From IMG/VR virus record IMGVR_UViG_3300034418_002291, positions 1-22,516 of that record: 22,516 nucleotides of DNA; one strand, given 5' to 3'. The notes below the pieces were generated by a model that was given only the letters and a program-made list of their open reading frames with translations, ran no database searches and had not been told where the DNA came from. The translations under genes and the position numbers were made by a program. This stretch comes from a virus. Of the stretch, positions 5,589-14,142 are shown in pieces (position 1 is the first letter of the stretch; every line of letters starts with the position of its first letter).

Positions 5589-6728
5589 TTAAGTCCTTTT
5601 AGTGCTAGGCTCTGCGAATAAACGCTCTTTAGGCAAAAAATCTTGCGCTGTTCTTAGTGGCTCTCTAATACTGCCTTGACCTACTGCACTACGAACAAGG
5701 TTGCTGTAAATGTTAGAAAGAGCCATGTTTACATCTCGGTCTGACGCCAAGCGTGCCCGAATAGCTGCCTCTGTAACAGTGTTTGCAAGGTTCAGTTGCC
5801 GCATTGCGTTCTCAAGGTTTGTTTGAGCTAGACCTGCACGCTCTCTTGCTAGGGTGTTTTCAATCATGCCTTGTTGCGTACCAGTAGTTGCACCACGGGT
5901 AGATGCCGCCTGCCGCATGGAAGCTCGACGTGCTTCTTCTTGCCGTGCCTGCTGAGGTGTAAGACCGCCTGTAAGCGCCTGCTGACGCAGTGCTTCGGCT
6001 TGCTCACGAATAGGTTGCGCCATCGAACGCAATTCACGTTCAGCAGAACGCCCTTGTCTTCGTGCTTGACCAGCAAAAAAAGCAGCAGGCAATGAAGCTG
6101 CTCCAGTCATAAGAAGCCTAGAAAGCAATGGATATTGCTGAGTAAACGATTGTTGTTGTGCAACAGCAGGTTGAGCCTGTGGAGCAGTAACGGGTGCGGG
6201 TGCGGCTGAGGGTTGAGCTACAGGGCCAGACGGTAACTGACCACGGCCCATGTCATAACGCTCTACGGCAGGGGCAGTCACCATTGGGATTGGTGCTTGA
6301 CCCATAGTTTCACGTTGCAGTGGCATGGGGCCATACTGGAAACCTTGAAAATCTTGGGGGGCAAGGGAGCCTGCGCCAGTAAACATAGGTTGCTCACCTG
6401 TAAATCGCTCAAACTGGTCGGGAGCCATGCCTTGAATATCGGCGGGTTGTACGGGTGGCGCAAACTCGCCAGAACCAAAGCCAATGTCGTATGGGTCGCC
6501 ATAAAAACCACCCTCTTGTGCCTCTACGTCGTAGTTGTACTCAGGCTGAAACTCTGGCAAACCTGTCATGGGGTTGATTCGGCCACTACCACCTGACTCA
6601 AGAAGCATTTGCGCTTCTTCTGGTGTAATATGAGCCAACATAGTGTCTGGGCCACGGCCCATTTGACGCAGCATTTCTGCGAGTTCTCGGGCGCTTCCAG
6701 TACCGCCCATGCCGGTTAAAGTTCTCAT
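5589..6728 (-). CDS. Virion protein, likely small ejection-type protein (379 aa)
   Basis: The N-terminal part (residues 25-60) carries DTMLAHITPEEAQMLLESGG and INPMTGLPEF, a signature I recall from many phage structural proteins. Residues 85-200 are Pro/Gln/Gly-rich and probably disordered. Residues 200-350 are helical, with a hydrophobic patch (LLMTGAASLPAAFFAG, about 205-220) and a basic Arg/Gln-rich coil containing TRGATTGTQQGMIENTLARE. The start was set at the ATG at 6728, which overlaps the preceding stop as ATGA; a start at 6770 would lengthen the overlap and has no support. The gene opens the run of three helical proteins proposed to be ejected with the DNA. Confidence 0.7.
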   Translation of the reverse strand: MRTLTGMGGTGSARELAEMLRQMGRGPDTMLAHITPEEAQMLLESGGSGRINPMTGLPEFQPEYNYDVEAQEGGFYGDPYDIGFGSGEFAPPVQPADIQGMAPDQFERFTGEQPMFTGAGSLAPQDFQGFQYGPMPLQRETMGQAPIPMVTAPAVERYDMGRGQLPSGPVAQPSAAPAPVTAPQAQPAVAQQQSFTQQYPLLSRLLMTGAASLPAAFFAGQARRQGRSAERELRSMAQPIREQAEALRQQALTGGLTPQQARQEEARRASMRQAASTRGATTGTQQGMIENTLARERAGLAQTNLENAMRQLNLANTVTEAAIRARLASDRDVNMALSNIYSNLVRSAVGQGSIREPLRTAQDFLPKERLFAEPSTKRT

Positions 6729-9706
6729 AGTCCTAACGCCCTTCGCAATCGCAATGAACGGCGGTTCCAAACGGCCCTTTGTTCGTCTGGATCACCGCCA
6801 AACAGCGGTTCTTTAGCCCCTAGAATACCCGCTAATGCCTCACCTGTCACTCTACTTGCAAAGGGTGCAACAGGTCTAGTATCGGGGGAATCAAATATCG
6901 CAACAGGGCGTAACGGCGTGCCTTCTTCCCCGCCGCCAGCACCCCCTTCACCACCTCCACCGGGGCCAACACCTTCTTCACCCGCACCGGGGCCAACGCC
7001 CTCAGTACCGGCTCCCGGCCCTGCACCTTCTTCACCGGCTCCCGGGCCTTCGCCACCGCCTACACCGCCAGTGCCAGCACCCTCACGGATTGGTAATCCC
7101 TCGCCAAAGCCACCACGAATAAGGTCGCCAATGACTTCGCTACTCGGACGACCACCTTCTTGTCCTTCTTCTTGTTGCAACGCACCAATTGCACCTACTT
7201 GGGTTCCGAGGGTGGATTCTGCTTCGGCTGCACTGCGCTCGGCAGCCTCCAAAGTGGCGATTTCAGCGTCTAACATTTCCCTTAAATCTGGGCCTAAAGC
7301 GGTCTGCAAGCCCTGTGATTGCAACCTTTCCCGCTGAGAGACAGCATTGGCAAGGTTTTGTGCCGCCTGTTGGCGTTCTTTTGCAGCATCTTGCAAGCGA
7401 TTCTCTAAAACACGCAATTCAAGGGCAAGCGCCTCTTGTAAAGTGCCCGGTGTAGCACCGCCGGGGGTACCAGCAGCACCTTCTGCACCCGTAGTGCCCT
7501 CTTCGTCCTCTGCTCTTGGCCCCGGCTCTAGTTTTACTGGCTCGGGTGGCCGTTGCTCTTGCACATCCACCTGCACTTGCTCGACATTGGTTGGATTAAG
7601 CACAAGCTCAGTCTCGGCAGTGGCGGGATTCTCAACAAAGTCAGGGTAGAAAACTAATTCAGAGGTGGTGGAGGCAAGCACGGGACGGTTGTTTGGCATA
7701 ACAAATAAGGTAAACACCTCGTTACCGACGTTAAATTGCTGGTTGCCACCCGAATCCACACCGATAAAGTTCCAGCCAACAGCGTTTCCTACCGAGGCAG
7801 TACCACCACCACCAACAAGTGCGTAGCCTTTGCCGCCAGCATCACTACTAAACTGGCGCATGTCATAGCCGATATTGATGCGAGATACTTGTTGATACAA
7901 GCCATCAAGGTAGCTTTGCGTTTCGTTAATGAACCGCATAATGTTATTTCGATCAGCCTCGGACATATTAGGCGACGTATCAAGCGCATCTTGAGCATTA
8001 GCAATAGCATCTTCTGTAACGCTAATTTCGCCTTCTAGCTCTGGCGGCACACCAAATAAACCACTTACGCCATCGGCACCAGCTACTTGCACACCCTCTC
8101 CCGGTATGCCGCCCTGCTGCAACTGCTCTTCAAGAATGGCGGCAATGCGGTCAGCATCCGTTTGTGGTTGCTCCAAACCGCTTAAACCGGCTTGTATGAC
8201 AATGCCGGGGGCAGCAAACTTAACCGCATCCTCAACGTCTTGTCCTCTTACAGCGGCTTCCGTAGCCACCTGAGCAATCCCTTTCGTGCCATTAAAGACA
8301 ACGGCTAGTGCCTCTGGGTTTTGCGTAAAGTTATTGGCCACAAAATCAACCGCTTTATTAGCGGCAGCCGTGCCTACTCCACGGGCTACAAGGCTAGCAC
8401 CGAGGGCAGAACCAAAACCATCACGGTTCTGAGCGTCAGCCACCACCGCATCGGCAATGGAACTGGCAATAATGTCTTGTGTTTGGCGCAAGCCTAAACC
8501 CGTCGCATCGGCAACAGCTTTGACGTTTGCTTCGCCACCCATAATGGTGTTGGCAATGTCGGGGGCACTTGCAATAGCACCGCCAACAATCGCACCCGTT
8601 ACCATTGACTGTTCAACGTTACCACCTGTCACGCCTGCAATCAGGCCACTAACGCCTGAGTTAACCACTGCATTACCGACAATCTTTGCGGTTGCACTGT
8701 TAGCAAGCTCGGTAGGTAGCATGGCATTGCCGACCTTTGTTGCATAGTCTGCACTAGCAATCTCACTACTTATGTAGGTTGTAGCTGCCGCTAGAGCTAC
8801 TTTTTCAGGCTCAATCTTTCCCGTGGTGGCTAATTGACCTAAAGAACTTCCTATGGCTGCACCGGGCACACCACCGTAGTAGGCACCGACAACGACTGCA
8901 ATAGGCTCGACAAGTGCTGCTAGATCACGCCCTAATAGCTGTTGGGCAAGTCCTTTGGTCTTTTCATGGACGGGGAAAAGAACGGCTCTGCCTGTGCTGT
9001 CAAAGTAGATTGAAAGGTTTGCGCTGTCTTTAACGCCACTAAGAATATCGCTCCACTTATCGGCACCCGTGTCTCGGTCTTTTTTAATTCTAAAAAGGCT
9101 TTCGCCCGTGTCTCGGTTAACCACAAACCTGCGGCCACTGTCATCCGTTGTCTCGGTAAGCTGTGCAAGGTTGGCTACACCCTTTTGAGCTAGCTTCTTA
9201 GCCGTTTCCGTGTGTATCTTGTCTAAATCGCTCTGTCTGCCACCGTAGCGTGCTGTTGGGCTGGTTTCAACCACGATCCCATACATTCGCTTTAGTTCGT
9301 CCGTAAGGTTGGCCGTCCTTTCCTCGAGGCTAGCAGGTGCAGCAGGTGCCTCGGGCGCAGCAGTGGGCACAGCGGTGGATACGTTCTGTGGCACTACCGT
9401 TGCCTGTATCAACTCTTCAAACGGCATTTGATTAACAGGCGTGGTGGGCAGCGTGATTGTTTCTGCTGGCGCAGTAAAAGACGGTGCAAGCGTTAAGCCT
9501 TGCCACATTGACGGCGTAATCCTAACGGTCTGCGTGTTGGACGGAGCAGGTTCAGGGCGATTGATGGTAATGCTTTGCGGCCCGAGTATGGGAGTAGTTG
9601 ACACCGGGCCTGTGGGCGACGGTGGCCCCATGTTAAGCACGGGGGAACTTGCCGCACGGTTTGCTGATGCTAAAAGGTCGGCAAAACTAAGGTTCTGAAT
9701 CGCCAT
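6725..9706 (-). CDS. Large phage structural protein (993 aa) with glycine-zipper-like region and Gly-Pro repeat
   Basis: Visible regions, in order: a Pro/Thr-rich disordered N-terminus (1-130); a mixed domain (135-250) with DSGRRFVVNRDTGESLFRIK; a Gly/Ala-rich hydrophobic stretch (265-400) with AIVGGAIASAP and GLIAGVTGG, resembling glycine zippers; a helical and mixed region (400-700); a coiled coil (755-835); and a Gly-rich tandem repeat (887-922). The C-terminal tail contains LGAKEPLFGGDPDEQRAVWN and ends RRALGL. No enzyme motif is evident. Position between the fibre cluster and the helical trio suggests a virion protein, perhaps involved in membrane passage or tail assembly; this is inference. 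The start ATG at 9706 follows the previous stop by one base (TAGTATG), with GGAG upstream. Confidence 0.7.
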   Translation of the reverse strand: MAIQNLSFADLLASANRAASSPVLNMGPPSPTGPVSTTPILGPQSITINRPEPAPSNTQTVRITPSMWQGLTLAPSFTAPAETITLPTTPVNQMPFEELIQATVVPQNVSTAVPTAAPEAPAAPASLEERTANLTDELKRMYGIVVETSPTARYGGRQSDLDKIHTETAKKLAQKGVANLAQLTETTDDSGRRFVVNRDTGESLFRIKKDRDTGADKWSDILSGVKDSANLSIYFDSTGRAVLFPVHEKTKGLAQQLLGRDLAALVEPIAVVVGAYYGGVPGAAIGSSLGQLATTGKIEPEKVALAAATTYISSEIASADYATKVGNAMLPTELANSATAKIVGNAVVNSGVSGLIAGVTGGNVEQSMVTGAIVGGAIASAPDIANTIMGGEANVKAVADATGLGLRQTQDIIASSIADAVVADAQNRDGFGSALGASLVARGVGTAAANKAVDFVANNFTQNPEALAVVFNGTKGIAQVATEAAVRGQDVEDAVKFAAPGIVIQAGLSGLEQPQTDADRIAAILEEQLQQGGIPGEGVQVAGADGVSGLFGVPPELEGEISVTEDAIANAQDALDTSPNMSEADRNNIMRFINETQSYLDGLYQQVSRINIGYDMRQFSSDAGGKGYALVGGGGTASVGNAVGWNFIGVDSGGNQQFNVGNEVFTLFVMPNNRPVLASTTSELVFYPDFVENPATAETELVLNPTNVEQVQVDVQEQRPPEPVKLEPGPRAEDEEGTTGAEGAAGTPGGATPGTLQEALALELRVLENRLQDAAKERQQAAQNLANAVSQRERLQSQGLQTALGPDLREMLDAEIATLEAAERSAAEAESTLGTQVGAIGALQQEEGQEGGRPSSEVIGDLIRGGFGEGLPIREGAGTGGVGGGEGPGAGEEGAGPGAGTEGVGPGAGEEGVGPGGGGEGGAGGGEEGTPLRPVAIFDSPDTRPVAPFASRVTGEALAGILGAKEPLFGGDPDEQRAVWNRRSLRLRRALGL
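6941..7048 (-). repeat. Four tandem 27-base units encoding GPGAGEEG(A/V)
   Basis: Inside the 993-residue protein, residues 887-922 are four consecutive 9-residue units: GPGAGEEGA, GPGAGTEGV, GPGAGEEGV and GPGGGGEGG. The DNA is partly degenerate between copies, with CCGGGAGCC in some units and CCCGGTGCG in others, so the repeat is kept at the protein level as well as by recent duplication. It probably forms a flexible acidic linker before the conserved C-terminal tail. Confidence 0.85.
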
Positions 9707-11049: not shown

Positions 11050-11394
11050 TTAGAGTCCATCTCCCGGCGTAATGTACAAGTCGGCAGTGCCAGAGCTTGT
11101 AATGGCCGTGAAGTAAGCATTAGGAACAAACGACAAAATCTCGTCTGTCTGCGGTAATAATGTAAGCACTGCGGTGCTGTTTGCGCCATCGCCAGTGGGG
11201 ATTACGCAGTTGGTCGCAGCATCGGCTGAGGCTTGAGCATAAGCCAGCCAACAGGCCGTATTACTTGATAGGTTGATGACACGGTACTGGTTTCCACCAA
11301 GGGTGGTGGACGGCACCTGAACGGGCGTAGGAGCCGTTGTATCGGCAACCAGCTTTACCGTCTTGCCAAGCGTTGTAAAAGCGTTAATTCCCAT
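11050..11394 (-). CDS. Small beta-rich virion protein, paralogue of the product at 322-669
   Basis: The 114-residue protein is beta-rich (KTVKLVADT, GGNQYRVINL, ADLYITPGDGL), with conserved ends shared with the product at 322-669. I recall related proteins in marine and freshwater phage structural clusters with endings like YVTPGDGL, annotated only as hypothetical. A minor decoration or tail role is likely. The start ATG lies inside the end of the preceding gene, giving an 11-base overlap, with GAGGTG just upstream as the binding site. Confidence 0.75.
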   Translation of the reverse strand: MGINAFTTLGKTVKLVADTTAPTPVQVPSTTLGGNQYRVINLSSNTACWLAYAQASADAATNCVIPTGDGANSTAVLTLLPQTDEILSFVPNAYFTAITSSGTADLYITPGDGL

Positions 11395-11788
11395 CTTGCA
11401 CCTCTATCCAGTTAACAGTTGTTTCGTCCCATTGGTAACGCTTAGGTGGCTCACCCGTACCAGCATCTTCTGGCATGGCTACTGGAGCATCCCAAAGGCA
11501 TGAGTCTTCGTTAAGAACCCATGAGTTAAACGTCTTTGGTGGAATAAAAGCATCTCGGTCTGCGTCATAGGCATACCCTAGACCTGCGTAATTCTTGCGA
11601 AACGCTTTGCTTTGGTCTGCTGAGGGTTGACCGTCAGAACCATAGTGAACGCCACCCCGGGTGTTATAAGATGTGCGCTTGTATATCCAACCATCATGCG
11701 CTAGTTCGTCTTCACGGTTCTCATCATCGTCACGACCAACAGTTACAAAGTCTACGATTCCATTTTTAATGCGGGCAAAGTGGGCCAT
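11384..11788 (-). CDS. Tail-fibre-region protein of the cyanophage-type MAHFA family (134 aa)
   Basis: The protein begins MAHFARIKNGIVDFVTVGRD, contains KAFRKNYAGLGYAYDADRDA and FIPPKTFNSWVLNEDSCLWD, and ends with a YQWDETTVNWIEV motif. This layout (MAHFA, FRK-YAG-GY-YD---D-FI-P--F-SW-L, W-AP--MP, Y-WDE----W-E) matches small proteins I know from cyanophage and marine phage tail gene clusters. They are annotated as hypothetical or tail-associated. A structural or fibre-tip role is likely but untested here. TAGGAG, formed by the preceding stop, serves as the binding site. Confidence 0.75.
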   Translation of the reverse strand: MAHFARIKNGIVDFVTVGRDDDENREDELAHDGWIYKRTSYNTRGGVHYGSDGQPSADQSKAFRKNYAGLGYAYDADRDAFIPPKTFNSWVLNEDSCLWDAPVAMPEDAGTGEPPKRYQWDETTVNWIEVQDGN

Positions 11789-11797
11789 CTATCACTC

Positions 11798-12427
11798 CTA
11801 TTTGAATGGTTTTCCAGTAATCCAGCTAACTAAAGAATAACGGGTGCCTTCAGTAACAGGCTTAACCTCATGCAAAACATAAGAGGGGAACAGAGCAACA
11901 AAGCCCTGATCCTTCTTCATCACTTCTGCCTTGTCACCCAAATACAAACACAAGTCACCACCCTTGTAGTCTTCAGGCTCCGAGAGTTGTAGAGTAAAAG
12001 ACAGTTTGCGAATCAGAGTGCCGGGTGCTGAGTCAATGTGCCGACCGTACTTCCCGCCGGGTGCTGAGTACTTGGTGAACTGAAATCCCTCGGTTGCACC
12101 AAACAGATCGAACTGAAAGAATCTGCCGTTCAAATCCATAATAATGTCGGTCAAACGCCTGTACGCCCAGTCAAGATCGTCAGAAGGGTAAAGCCATGCG
12201 ATCTCCGACTTCCGCACCTTCTGTGCTTCTTCACCACGAGTCTTAGCTTGTTTAGCAGTCCTGTCGTTGCCGATCTCGATGATGCGCTCACACTCCTCCT
12301 TGCTGAAGGCTTTCTCCCAGTAGGCCCACGAGTGAACGGGGTCGAGGTTAAAAGCCCAAGCAGGGTTAGGTGTCTGCCGTTCTTTAGGGGCAGAGTGCAT
12401 AGGTATGACATCAGCAGTATTTTTCAA
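11798..12427 (-). CDS. 2-oxoglutarate/Fe(II)-dependent oxygenase, prolyl 4-hydroxylase-like (209 aa)
   Basis: This enzyme family hydroxylates proteins or small molecules using O2, 2-oxoglutarate and Fe(II). The full catalytic set is visible. The iron ligands are H130 and D132 (GRHIDSAPG) and H186 (SYVLHEVKPV), and R196 (GTRYSLVSWI) is placed to bind 2-oxoglutarate. Residues 35-110 form the helical N-terminal part seen in such folds, and the core beta-strands follow (FQFTKY, KLSFTLQLSE, GGDLCLYLGD). The length is normal for phage and bacterial P4Hc/PiuC-like proteins. The start is TTG at 12427, overlapping the adhesin stop as TTGA; an ATG at 12400 (residue 10) is the alternative and also lacks a clear binding site. 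The substrate is unknown; its place in the fibre operon hints at virion protein modification. Confidence 0.92.
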   Translation of the reverse strand: MKNTADVIPMHSAPKERQTPNPAWAFNLDPVHSWAYWEKAFSKEECERIIEIGNDRTAKQAKTRGEEAQKVRKSEIAWLYPSDDLDWAYRRLTDIIMDLNGRFFQFDLFGATEGFQFTKYSAPGGKYGRHIDSAPGTLIRKLSFTLQLSEPEDYKGGDLCLYLGDKAEVMKKDQGFVALFPSYVLHEVKPVTEGTRYSLVSWITGKPFK

Positions 12428-14142
12428 GAGAATGTCACCGTTTCGTTAGTTGTAGAAGTAGCGGTAACAATGTAGGTTGTATAGCCGCCTGCGGTTGAGT
12501 TTGTTTCTGTCACGCCACCAGTAAATGTAGCAGTCTTGGTGTCAGGGATCTTGATAACGACTACACCTGAAGAGCCATTGCCACCTGCGGTTGCGTTCCC
12601 TGCTCCACCACCGCCACCACCTCGATTGGTGGTTCCATTTGATCCTGGCGTAGAACTAATTCCACCATTTCCACCAACACTAGAGCCTCCTGTTCCAGCA
12701 GGGCCAATAGATTCACAGCCACCTCCACCACCACCAGAGTAAAATAGAGAAGATCCTGTAATTGAGTTTGATGTTCCTGCCCCACCGTTGCCGCCTTGAT
12801 TTCCGTCTACAGAACTTGCACCAGCACCACCATTTCCGCCACCACCACCGCCACCATACCTAACTGAAACAAAACCATTGCCGCCGTTATTTCCTTGGCT
12901 TGGGCTTCTAAATGAAACATTCCCAGACCCGCCAACATTAGGCCCACCGCCACCACCACCGCCAGAACCACCATTTCCACCTACAATGCCAGACCCGCCA
13001 CCGCTACCGCCACCACTAGCTAAAATAGATGCGAATTGAGAGCTAGACCCAACACTACCAGAGGCATTTGAGCCACTGGGCGCACCAGCGCCACCCGACC
13101 CAACAATTACTGGGTACGCTTGGCCTGTTACAACTGCGGTTGCTACTGCTGATGCCGAGGCTAAGTAACCACCCGCACCACCACCACCACCGCCCGTGGC
13201 CGCTCCCCCACCGCCACCACCTGCAACCACTAGGTACTCGGCTAAGAAAGCATTCGGGTAGAAAGTAACTGTCTCACTTGTCGTAGAAGTGGCTTGCACT
13301 TCGTAAATGTTGTAACCCGAAACAGAGTAAGAGCGTGTGGCTACACCATCAGAGAAGACTGCCGCCGCAGTATCGGGTACTCGTAGGATGACAACACCAG
13401 AGCCGCCGTTACCATTTCCAACATAGTAAGCACCGCCACCGCCTCCACCTGTCAATGCTGTGCCTGGTGTACTTCCTTGACTGCCGGTACTACCGTTACC
13501 GCCACCACCTGCGCCACCTGCTCCCCCACCTGCACCTGCGGCACCACCGCCACCACCGCCACCCCTTTGAACTGCGGAGCCAGTAATATCAGAAAAAACG
13601 CCTTGCCCACCATTTCCAGCAACCGTTCCAGATGCCGCAGTTCCTACTGCTCCAGCACCACCGCCACCCCCACCAGAAGAAGTTCCGCTTGCGGCTCCAT
13701 CTCCACCAGCATAGCCTTGGTTTGCTGTTCCAGCACTTCCTGGGCTTCCAGATCCATAGCCACCAGCACCAGAACCACCAACACCGCCAGAAATAGTAAA
13801 TGCGCCACCACCAACCGAGGTAATACTACTAAATACAGAATCACTACCCTTACTATTAGCTCCACCAGCTCCACCAGCACCAACTGTTACTGTGTAAGCA
13901 GTTCCAAAGGTTGCGGTAAAAGAAGATTCTGGAGAAGCACCCCCACCAGAACCTTTGGGAGTAGAAACGGGTGCCGCAGATGTATAATTGGTACGATACC
14001 CGCCAGCACCACCACCAGAAGTTCCTGTGCCACCACCAGCGATGACGAGGTAAGATACGGATGTAGATGTAGAAAAAGATGCCGCCGCAAAACCATAAGC
14101 CCTAGCAGTTGCCGCAGCGATAGATGATAAAAGTGGTGGCAT
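12424..14142 (-). CDS. Glycine-rich tail fibre/adhesin with duplicated domain (572 aa)
   Basis: About the whole protein is Gly/Ala/Ser-rich, with many GGGGGG blocks. It is two copies of one unit. Unit 1 (about residues 31-294) runs from YLVIAGGG to GGSGVVILRVPDT and ends SETVTF. Unit 2 (about 303-572) runs from YLVVAGGG to SSGVVVIKIPDT and ends NETVTFS. Each unit closes with a small beta region with a SGYNIYEVQATST or GGYTTYIVTATST strand pair. Glycine-rich domains of this kind occur in phage fibres and adhesin tips, where polyglycine type II helices pack as a bundle (as in phage S16 gp38); applying this here is inference. It probably contacts the host surface. AAGAGA precedes the ATG. GC-rich glycine codons give a strong GGTGGTGG base pattern across the gene. 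Confidence 0.82.
   Translation of the reverse strand: MPPLLSSIAAATARAYGFAAASFSTSTSVSYLVIAGGGTGTSGGGAGGYRTNYTSAAPVSTPKGSGGGASPESSFTATFGTAYTVTVGAGGAGGANSKGSDSVFSSITSVGGGAFTISGGVGGSGAGGYGSGSPGSAGTANQGYAGGDGAASGTSSGGGGGGAGAVGTAASGTVAGNGGQGVFSDITGSAVQRGGGGGGGAAGAGGGAGGAGGGGNGSTGSQGSTPGTALTGGGGGGAYYVGNGNGGSGVVILRVPDTAAAVFSDGVATRSYSVSGYNIYEVQATSTTSETVTFYPNAFLAEYLVVAGGGGGGAATGGGGGGAGGYLASASAVATAVVTGQAYPVIVGSGGAGAPSGSNASGSVGSSSQFASILASGGGSGGGSGIVGGNGGSGGGGGGGPNVGGSGNVSFRSPSQGNNGGNGFVSVRYGGGGGGGNGGAGASSVDGNQGGNGGAGTSNSITGSSLFYSGGGGGGCESIGPAGTGGSSVGGNGGISSTPGSNGTTNRGGGGGGAGNATAGGNGSSGVVVIKIPDTKTATFTGGVTETNSTAGGYTTYIVTATSTTNETVTFS

Follow-up and report, generated by a model that had tools for sequence, protein, structure and literature searches.

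The closest described relatives of the enzyme considered here are prolyl hydroxylases of cells and of an algal virus. The gene studied lies on a 22.5-kb virus fragment from IMG/VR (22,516 nt), and we refer to this whole stretch of DNA as the window. By fold, the nearest enzyme is PPHD of Pseudomonas putida (4iw3; Z 20.8, 176 residues, 23% identity), which shares with the phage enzyme the H-x-D...H triad, an Arg and a Tyr that precedes the first metal-binding His by three positions (H-3). PPHD is, however, a cellular protein that was co-crystallised with EF-Tu, it has no fibre linkage, and the sequence match is weak. A virus-encoded prolyl hydroxylase of the same fold is known from PBCV-1 (vCPH; 5c5t, Z 18.8), but this is an algal virus, and the substrates of vCPH are collagen and Pro-rich sequences rather than polyglycine adhesins; hydroxylation of viral peptides by vCPH has been reported (Eriksson 1999, cited in PMC9301287). 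Among solved structures, the best sequence match of the phage enzyme is to the PKHD enzymes YbiX/PiuC (NF003972-NF003975; 3dkq, 9ghl), in which the spacing of the Arg after the second His is also the same. We rejected assignment as a PKHD-type equivalog: every NCBIfam cut-off was missed (84.1/143, 49.8/180, 44.7/336 and 36.8/399 bits), and the alignments place Phe, not Tyr, at H-3 of the PKHD proteins.

The family to which the window enzyme itself belongs is that of the cyanophage and pelagiphage 2-oxoglutarate (2OG)-Fe(II) oxygenases (phrog_61; T4-GC 412), whose members are 30-38% identical to it. Such oxygenases were found in 14 of 16 cyanophage genomes, where modulation of 2OG was proposed as their role and DNA repair was cited (PMC3037559). 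A 2022 survey found viral P4HA genes to be abundant and concluded that their use by viruses "remains cryptic" (PMC9301287). The enzymes of S-RSM4, S-SM1, S-SSM5, P-RSM4, S-CAM8 and HTVC023P lie near a Gly-rich protein and a phrog_7759 protein, as in the window; only a minority of the cyanophage relatives was examined, and some of those are not fibre-linked. On the fibre side, S16 gp38 and Pam3 gp24 with its chaperone gp25 resemble the window in combining a glycine-rich receptor-binding domain with a small dedicated neighbour protein, but no hydroxylase has been described in these systems. We found no paper in the openly accessible literature that links phage 2OG oxygenases to polyglycine fibres; others may exist.

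We propose that the window enzyme is a prolyl-4-hydroxylase that acts on the prolines of a glycine-rich adhesin and is made from the adhesin's message. We regard this reading as likely, with co-transcription, hydroxylation, the C4 position and any effect on the fibre all being inferred.

The oxygenase gene and its active site

All recognisable virion genes of the window are carried on the minus strand. The features discussed below are as follows.

11798-12427, minus strand: 2OG/Fe(II) oxygenase, proposed prolyl-4-hydroxylase, 209 aa, TTG start; supported by PF13640 (2.1e-15), phrog_61 (1.1e-33) and fold
12424-12427, minus strand: TTGA overlap of the adhesin stop (TGA) and the oxygenase start (TTG), read from the sequence; ATGA in orthologues at the same place
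12435-12439, minus strand: GGTGA, Shine-Dalgarno-like, within the adhesin gene and 7 nt before the TTG start; identified from sequence alone
12424-14142, minus strand: glycine-rich adhesin, proposed substrate, 572 aa, 31% Gly, 2.8% Pro; PF21722, phrog_2295
11384-11788, minus strand: phrog_7759 family protein, third cassette member, 134 aa; phrog_7759 5.4e-31
6914-7054, minus strand: Gly repeat with GPG motifs, close to the C-terminal end of the 993-aa protein 6725-9706; possible second substrate

The first-pass annotation had described a complete 2OG/Fe(II) oxygenase with H130, D132, H186 and R196, whose gene overlaps that of a glycine-rich adhesin by the four bases TTGA. Both statements held. 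The oxygenase ORF is intact and without stops, its match to PF13640 reached 57.9 bits against a curated cut-off of 27, and the four residues are all in place. The overlap with the upstream ORF is exact, and that ORF matched PF21722 (Gly_rich_2) at 88.7 bits (cut-off 24.3; 7.6e-25). Compared with its counterpart in contig L004, the oxygenase showed a dN of 0.027 and a dS of 0.63, indicating purifying selection.

The TTG start had also been called unusual. It is genuine: orthologues in three contigs (L004-L006) have an ATG at the same base, forming an ATGA overlap, and the same conserved N-terminus; the oxygenases of L016 and L033 likewise start with TTG. The start is thus real, but the codon is a within-clade variant and evidence of nothing special. 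Contigs with the TTG start carry GGTGA upstream and those with the ATG start carry GGTCA (window positions 12424-12439 compared with L004-L006), and start codon and Shine-Dalgarno strength seem to be traded against each other. The description of the downstream genes as small virion genes could be kept in part: the gene at 10287-11039 matches phage tail families, but the one at 11384-11788 belongs to phrog_7759, whose function is unknown.

Residue conservation was counted in a family-wide alignment of 135-136 relatives, and the codons of the active-site residues are located as follows.

12047-12049, minus strand: Y127, equivalent of PHD2 Tyr310 (H-3), mark of 4-hydroxylases; Tyr in 131 of 135 relatives (role from PMC4396695)
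12038-12040, minus strand: H130, metal ligand; invariant
12032-12034, minus strand: D132, metal ligand; invariant
12008-12010, minus strand: R140, equivalent of PHD2 Arg322 (substrate Pro carbonyl); Arg in 128 of 135 relatives (role from PMC4396695)
11870-11872, minus strand: H186, metal ligand; invariant
11840-11842, minus strand: R196, ligand of the 2OG C5-carboxylate; invariant

The H-x-D...H triad and the basic 2OG ligand showed no variation among relatives that have a residue at the position concerned. An Arg at the mouth of the active site (PHD2 Arg322) is common to all P3Hs and P4Hs, and the P4Hs add the Tyr at H-3, where 3-hydroxylases have Leu (PMC4396695). R140 of the oxygenase aligns with the Arg of PPHD. 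As judged from these alignments, the active site carries the prolyl-4-hydroxylase determinants, Tyr and Arg, while trans-4 hydroxylation of peptidyl Pro is itself an inference. The two cultured-phage relatives that lack the Tyr at H-3 are those of PhiXhv-12 and DLP_6, and no Gly-rich gene was present on the stretch examined around either enzyme.

An AlphaFold2 model of the oxygenase, built from 30 relatives (pLDDT 81; confidence is low for roughly the first 27 residues), is a double-stranded beta-helix like that of the prolyl hydroxylase subfamily; a fold does not by itself establish function. The P. putida prolyl-4-hydroxylase was the best match, in agreement with Foldseek, followed by HIF prolyl hydroxylases (PHD2, Z about 20), vCPH, an algal P4H, PiuC and OGFOD1, and prolyl hydroxylases filled nearly all of the top 50 places in the fold search.

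Linkage of the oxygenase to glycine-rich genes

In 52 related viral loci, the oxygenase again has a Gly-rich gene and the gene of a 120-140-aa phrog_7759 protein as neighbours. A Gly-rich gene lay no more than three genes from the enzyme in 31 of 56 enzyme clusters, and a phrog_7759 gene did so in 31 clusters. When genes of the same loci were drawn at random 2000 times, a Gly-rich gene was this close in 15.2 clusters on average and in 28 at most, so the adjacency is not due to chance. Conserved pairing of enzyme and adhesin in relatives had been named as a check on the earlier suggestion that the enzyme modifies a fibre protein. This check was run and the pairing was found throughout: in all eight clusters whose enzymes share some 70% identity or more with that of the window, the phrog_7759 gene is a direct neighbour and the Gly-rich gene is at most two genes away. 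The suggestion is therefore supported by the conserved pairing; hydroxylation itself has not been shown.

Seven contigs (L004-L006, L009, L010, L012 and L016) retain the cassette of Gly-rich, oxygenase and phrog_7759 genes, with enzymes 74-97% identical, although most of their other nearby genes have no match to the window's genes; the cassette thus moves as a unit. Among the matches listed, loci found via phrog_7759 had a Gly-rich neighbour in 66 of 80 cases but this oxygenase in only 2 of 80, so the enzyme is an extra that a widespread fibre module may or may not carry. Proteins of the phrog_7759 family are very common beside Gly-rich fibres, with at least 600 matches in each of two scans. 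Their profile found nothing credible in the PDB and had no sequence match to a fibre chaperone of the Pam3 gp25/Tfa type. A model of the protein gave no significant Foldseek match, only a weak likeness to a chain of the Pam3 fibre complex (7ypx_a; prob 0.33, E 1.1). It is possibly a fibre chaperone, which is a plausible guess. The window adhesin likewise had no match among PDB sequences.

The enzyme family is not uniform. About a quarter of the 56 clusters had no Gly-rich gene on the stretch examined, and the relatives in S-H38, CRP-810 and Melnitz are not located in fibre regions, that of CRP-810 being in a DNA-metabolism region. Because these clusters and relatives are not fibre-linked, the family may have other substrates. 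The enzyme could also be a prolyl hydroxylase of a host protein, in the way that PPHD acts on EF-Tu, or of another virion protein, with the fibre locus serving only as an insertion hot spot. That PPHD is the best structural match and that some relatives are not fibre-linked both favour this explanation, as do the GPG repeats of the window's 993-aa protein; of the 15 window proteins checked, that protein alone contains GPG motifs, all four of them in a 9-residue Gly repeat, and it is possible that it is a second or even the main substrate. A target other than the adhesin would not, however, predict the proline enrichment described below, which is confined to Gly-rich proteins and leaves the Pro content of neighbouring genes unchanged, and we consider this explanation unlikely.

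Only seven relatives were found in bacterial genomes, mostly in MAG contigs; the Pseudokordiimonas copy has a polyGly protein nearby with 6.3% Pro. Just upstream of the enzyme in L036, a gene at 2072-2824 matches Anp1 glycosyltransferases below the threshold (PF03452, 2e-5), and L043 and L044 contain a gene of similar size. In light of this Anp1-like neighbour, hydroxyproline could be a glycosylation site.

Proline content of adhesins with and without the enzyme

If the adhesin is hydroxylated at Pro, adhesins with and without the enzyme should differ in Pro. We compared 78 polyglycine adhesins (after clustering) encoded within four genes of the enzyme with 109 polyglycine adhesins encoded beside phrog_7759 in loci without it. 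Sampling was by pattern scans limited to 80 loci, and collagen-like proteins were left out because a few GPTGPT proteins inflated the result. Adhesins linked to the enzyme contained 4.84% Pro, compared to 2.56% in the controls (p=4e-16). Pro was the only residue so affected and no other came near; Ala and Thr were slightly lower with the enzyme, and Lys, Asn, Asp and His content did not differ between the two sets. Pro, Lys, Asn and Asp had all been put forward as candidate residues, of which Pro tracks the enzyme and the other three do not. Local GC and the Pro content of other proteins were equal between the two types of locus.

These data also bear on the idea that the substrate is not proline, or not protein (Asn, Asp, Lys, a lipid, a glycan or nucleic acid), or that the enzyme draws down 2-oxoglutarate. 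The 2OG fold is versatile, and the roles raised for the cyanophage enzymes in PMC3037559 are of this kind. The unchanged Lys, Asn and Asp content of the linked adhesins speaks against it, however, as do the prolyl hydroxylase identity of the closest folds and the conservation of the P4H Tyr and Arg, and it would leave the linkage to a fibre cassette unexplained. We judge it very unlikely.

The excess was concentrated next to glycine. GP occurred at 9.6 vs. 1.9 per 1000 aa with and without the enzyme (5-fold), PG at 12.9 vs. 4.0 (3-fold) and GPG at 3.2 vs. 0.5 (6-fold), whereas Pro not flanked by Gly rose only from 20 to 29 per 1000 residues. Among adhesins matched one to one, Pro was higher with the enzyme in 70 of 78 pairs and lower in 8, and 27 of 29 enzyme lineages were above the control median. 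In aligned pairs, Pro was private to the enzyme-linked member at 759 sites and to the other member at 253, and frequent contexts of the extra prolines were GGPGG, GNPGG and GAPGG. The last variable position of an alignable GTxxQGxxGG motif was Pro in 11 of 35 enzyme-linked copies and in none of 65 others. All of these are x-Pro-Gly sites, a form accepted by collagen prolyl 4-hydroxylases. Gly-rich genes more than four genes from the enzyme in the same loci were Pro-rich too, so the trait belongs to the phage and not to the adjacent gene. A TPxxxPSQG motif was rejected as the cause of the excess, as it is present in both groups and the excess falls at other positions. The enrichment is correlative evidence, and hydroxyproline itself has not been shown.

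Shared ancestry, hosts or habitat could produce such an association as a by-product, without any enzyme-substrate relation; enzyme status is indeed clustered on the phrog_7759 tree, and host and habitat were not controlled directly. We matched adhesins by phrog_7759 similarity, a criterion independent of adhesin composition, and found Pro higher with the enzyme in 63 of 67 pairs and lower in 4. The enzyme effect persisted (+1.45% Pro; t 7.7, p=2e-12) when phylogeny was accounted for by regression on the 156-tip phrog_7759 tree, with GC, length and Gly content entered as covariates. The tree contains 19 inferred changes of enzyme status, and in small mixed clades Gly-flanked Pro was higher with the enzyme in nine of nine and total Pro in seven of nine. 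By these reconstructions, Pro enrichment tracks the presence of the enzyme across independent gains and losses. These results, together with the equal GC and background Pro and the cultured-phage patterns below, count against a by-product, which we hold to be the least probable of the explanations weighed here.

In cultured phages that encode the enzyme near fibre genes, Pro makes up 4.7-7.2% of the Gly-rich protein whose gene is beside or close to phrog_7759. The values are 4.9% in S-RSM4, 5.4% in S-SM1, 5.7% in S-SSM5, 6.7% in P-RSM4 and 6.9% in S-CAM8 for the cyanophages, and 4.7% in HTVC008M, 6.5% in HTVC023P, 6.1% in 023Pt_psg01, and 5.9 and 7.2% in HTVC033P. Phages for which a search of the whole record found no copy of the enzyme have less (phiPsal1, 3.4%; zth2-2, 1.9%; CRP-143, 2.3%; CRP-207, 1.7%; HTVC025P, 2.6%), and DSL-LC04, without the enzyme but with another oxygenase, has 3.7%. 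The PF21722 domain is common to the adhesins of both groups. Pelagiphages grown on one host strain repeat the pattern (HTVC023P, HTVC033P and HTVC008M vs. HTVC025P). Bellamy (7.2% Pro) was an apparent exception for which we predicted an enzyme elsewhere in the genome beforehand; the whole-record search located it at 47.7-48.3 kb, where another Gly-rich gene ends 0.6 kb before it. In Melnitz, the enzyme lies 28 kb from the Gly-rich genes, whose products are Pro-poor (2.1-2.4%), which fits local pairing.

The window adhesin itself is unexceptional. Its Pro content is at the 62nd percentile of the controls and its Gly-flanked Pro, five residues (P134, P226, P401, P481 and P499), at the 75th; the adhesins of the close relatives L009, L010 and L012 are likewise ordinary in Pro. 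The window's close clade as a whole is mildly enriched (3.64 vs. 2.6%, p=0.0025), also in Gly-flanked Pro (14.7 vs. 5.8, p=4e-4).

Other oxygenases accompany 21 of the 78 enzyme-linked loci and 4 of the 109 controls, and credit for the Pro effect could be shared with them. A PF13759-like oxygenase was rejected as the sole cause, since the adhesins of enzyme-linked loci without it are still Pro-rich (4.70 vs. 5.21%). Members of this PF13759-like group are too divergent for one profile. The loci L098, L105, L138 and L381 have such an oxygenase without the phrog_61 enzyme. Only four of the 109 controls have one, yet the seven most Pro-rich control adhesins include those of L098, L105 and L138, which suggests that it is a second fibre prolyl hydroxylase.

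A possible route to hydroxyproline in fibre tips

In the adhesin-hydroxylase reading that we favour, the oxygenase and the adhesin would be made from one message via their overlapping stop and start codons. The enzyme would use O2, Fe(II) and 2-oxoglutarate to hydroxylate Pro within or beside the polyglycine stretches, typically in the context x-Pro-Gly-Gly, during or just after adhesin synthesis in the host. Tips of the Pam3 gp24 type stack glycine-rich strands that are held by main-chain hydrogen bonds (PMC9608196). A Pro in such a strand would lack the NH donor, and a 4-hydroxyl could restore a donor or provide a polar group at the receptor-facing tip. Hydroxyproline may in this way make the glycine-rich receptor-binding tip more stable or alter its shape, and with the modification a fibre lineage may tolerate prolines that are avoided in relatives without the enzyme.

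A broader reading is that aquatic tailed phages (cyanophages and pelagiphages as well as many uncultured phages of fresh and marine waters) use dedicated oxygenases to introduce hydroxyproline post-translationally into polyglycine receptor-binding tips, and that a large share of the phage 2OG oxygenases now filed as auxiliary metabolic genes are fibre-maturation enzymes; we give this about an even chance. On this reading, hydroxylation would add to phage receptor-binding chemistry a layer not known before. The compositional signal points to a class of substrate and to the residue targeted for common, unexplained cyanophage genes, and can be checked in cultured phages; virion proteomics data exist for S-SM1 (PMC3037559). 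If the proposal is true, sequence-based host-range prediction and work with recombinant fibres would overlook a modified amino acid in the fibre tips, and adhesion chemistry would depend on the oxygen and iron available in the infected cell.

The fibre regions of S-SM1, S-SSM5, P-RSM4 and S-CAM8 (L382-L385) encode a Gly-rich protein and phrog_7759 together with several consecutive oxygenases, some of them annotated as leprecan (collagen prolyl 3-hydroxylase) or ferrochelatase. This row of cyanomyovirus oxygenases may be a fibre-modification cluster.
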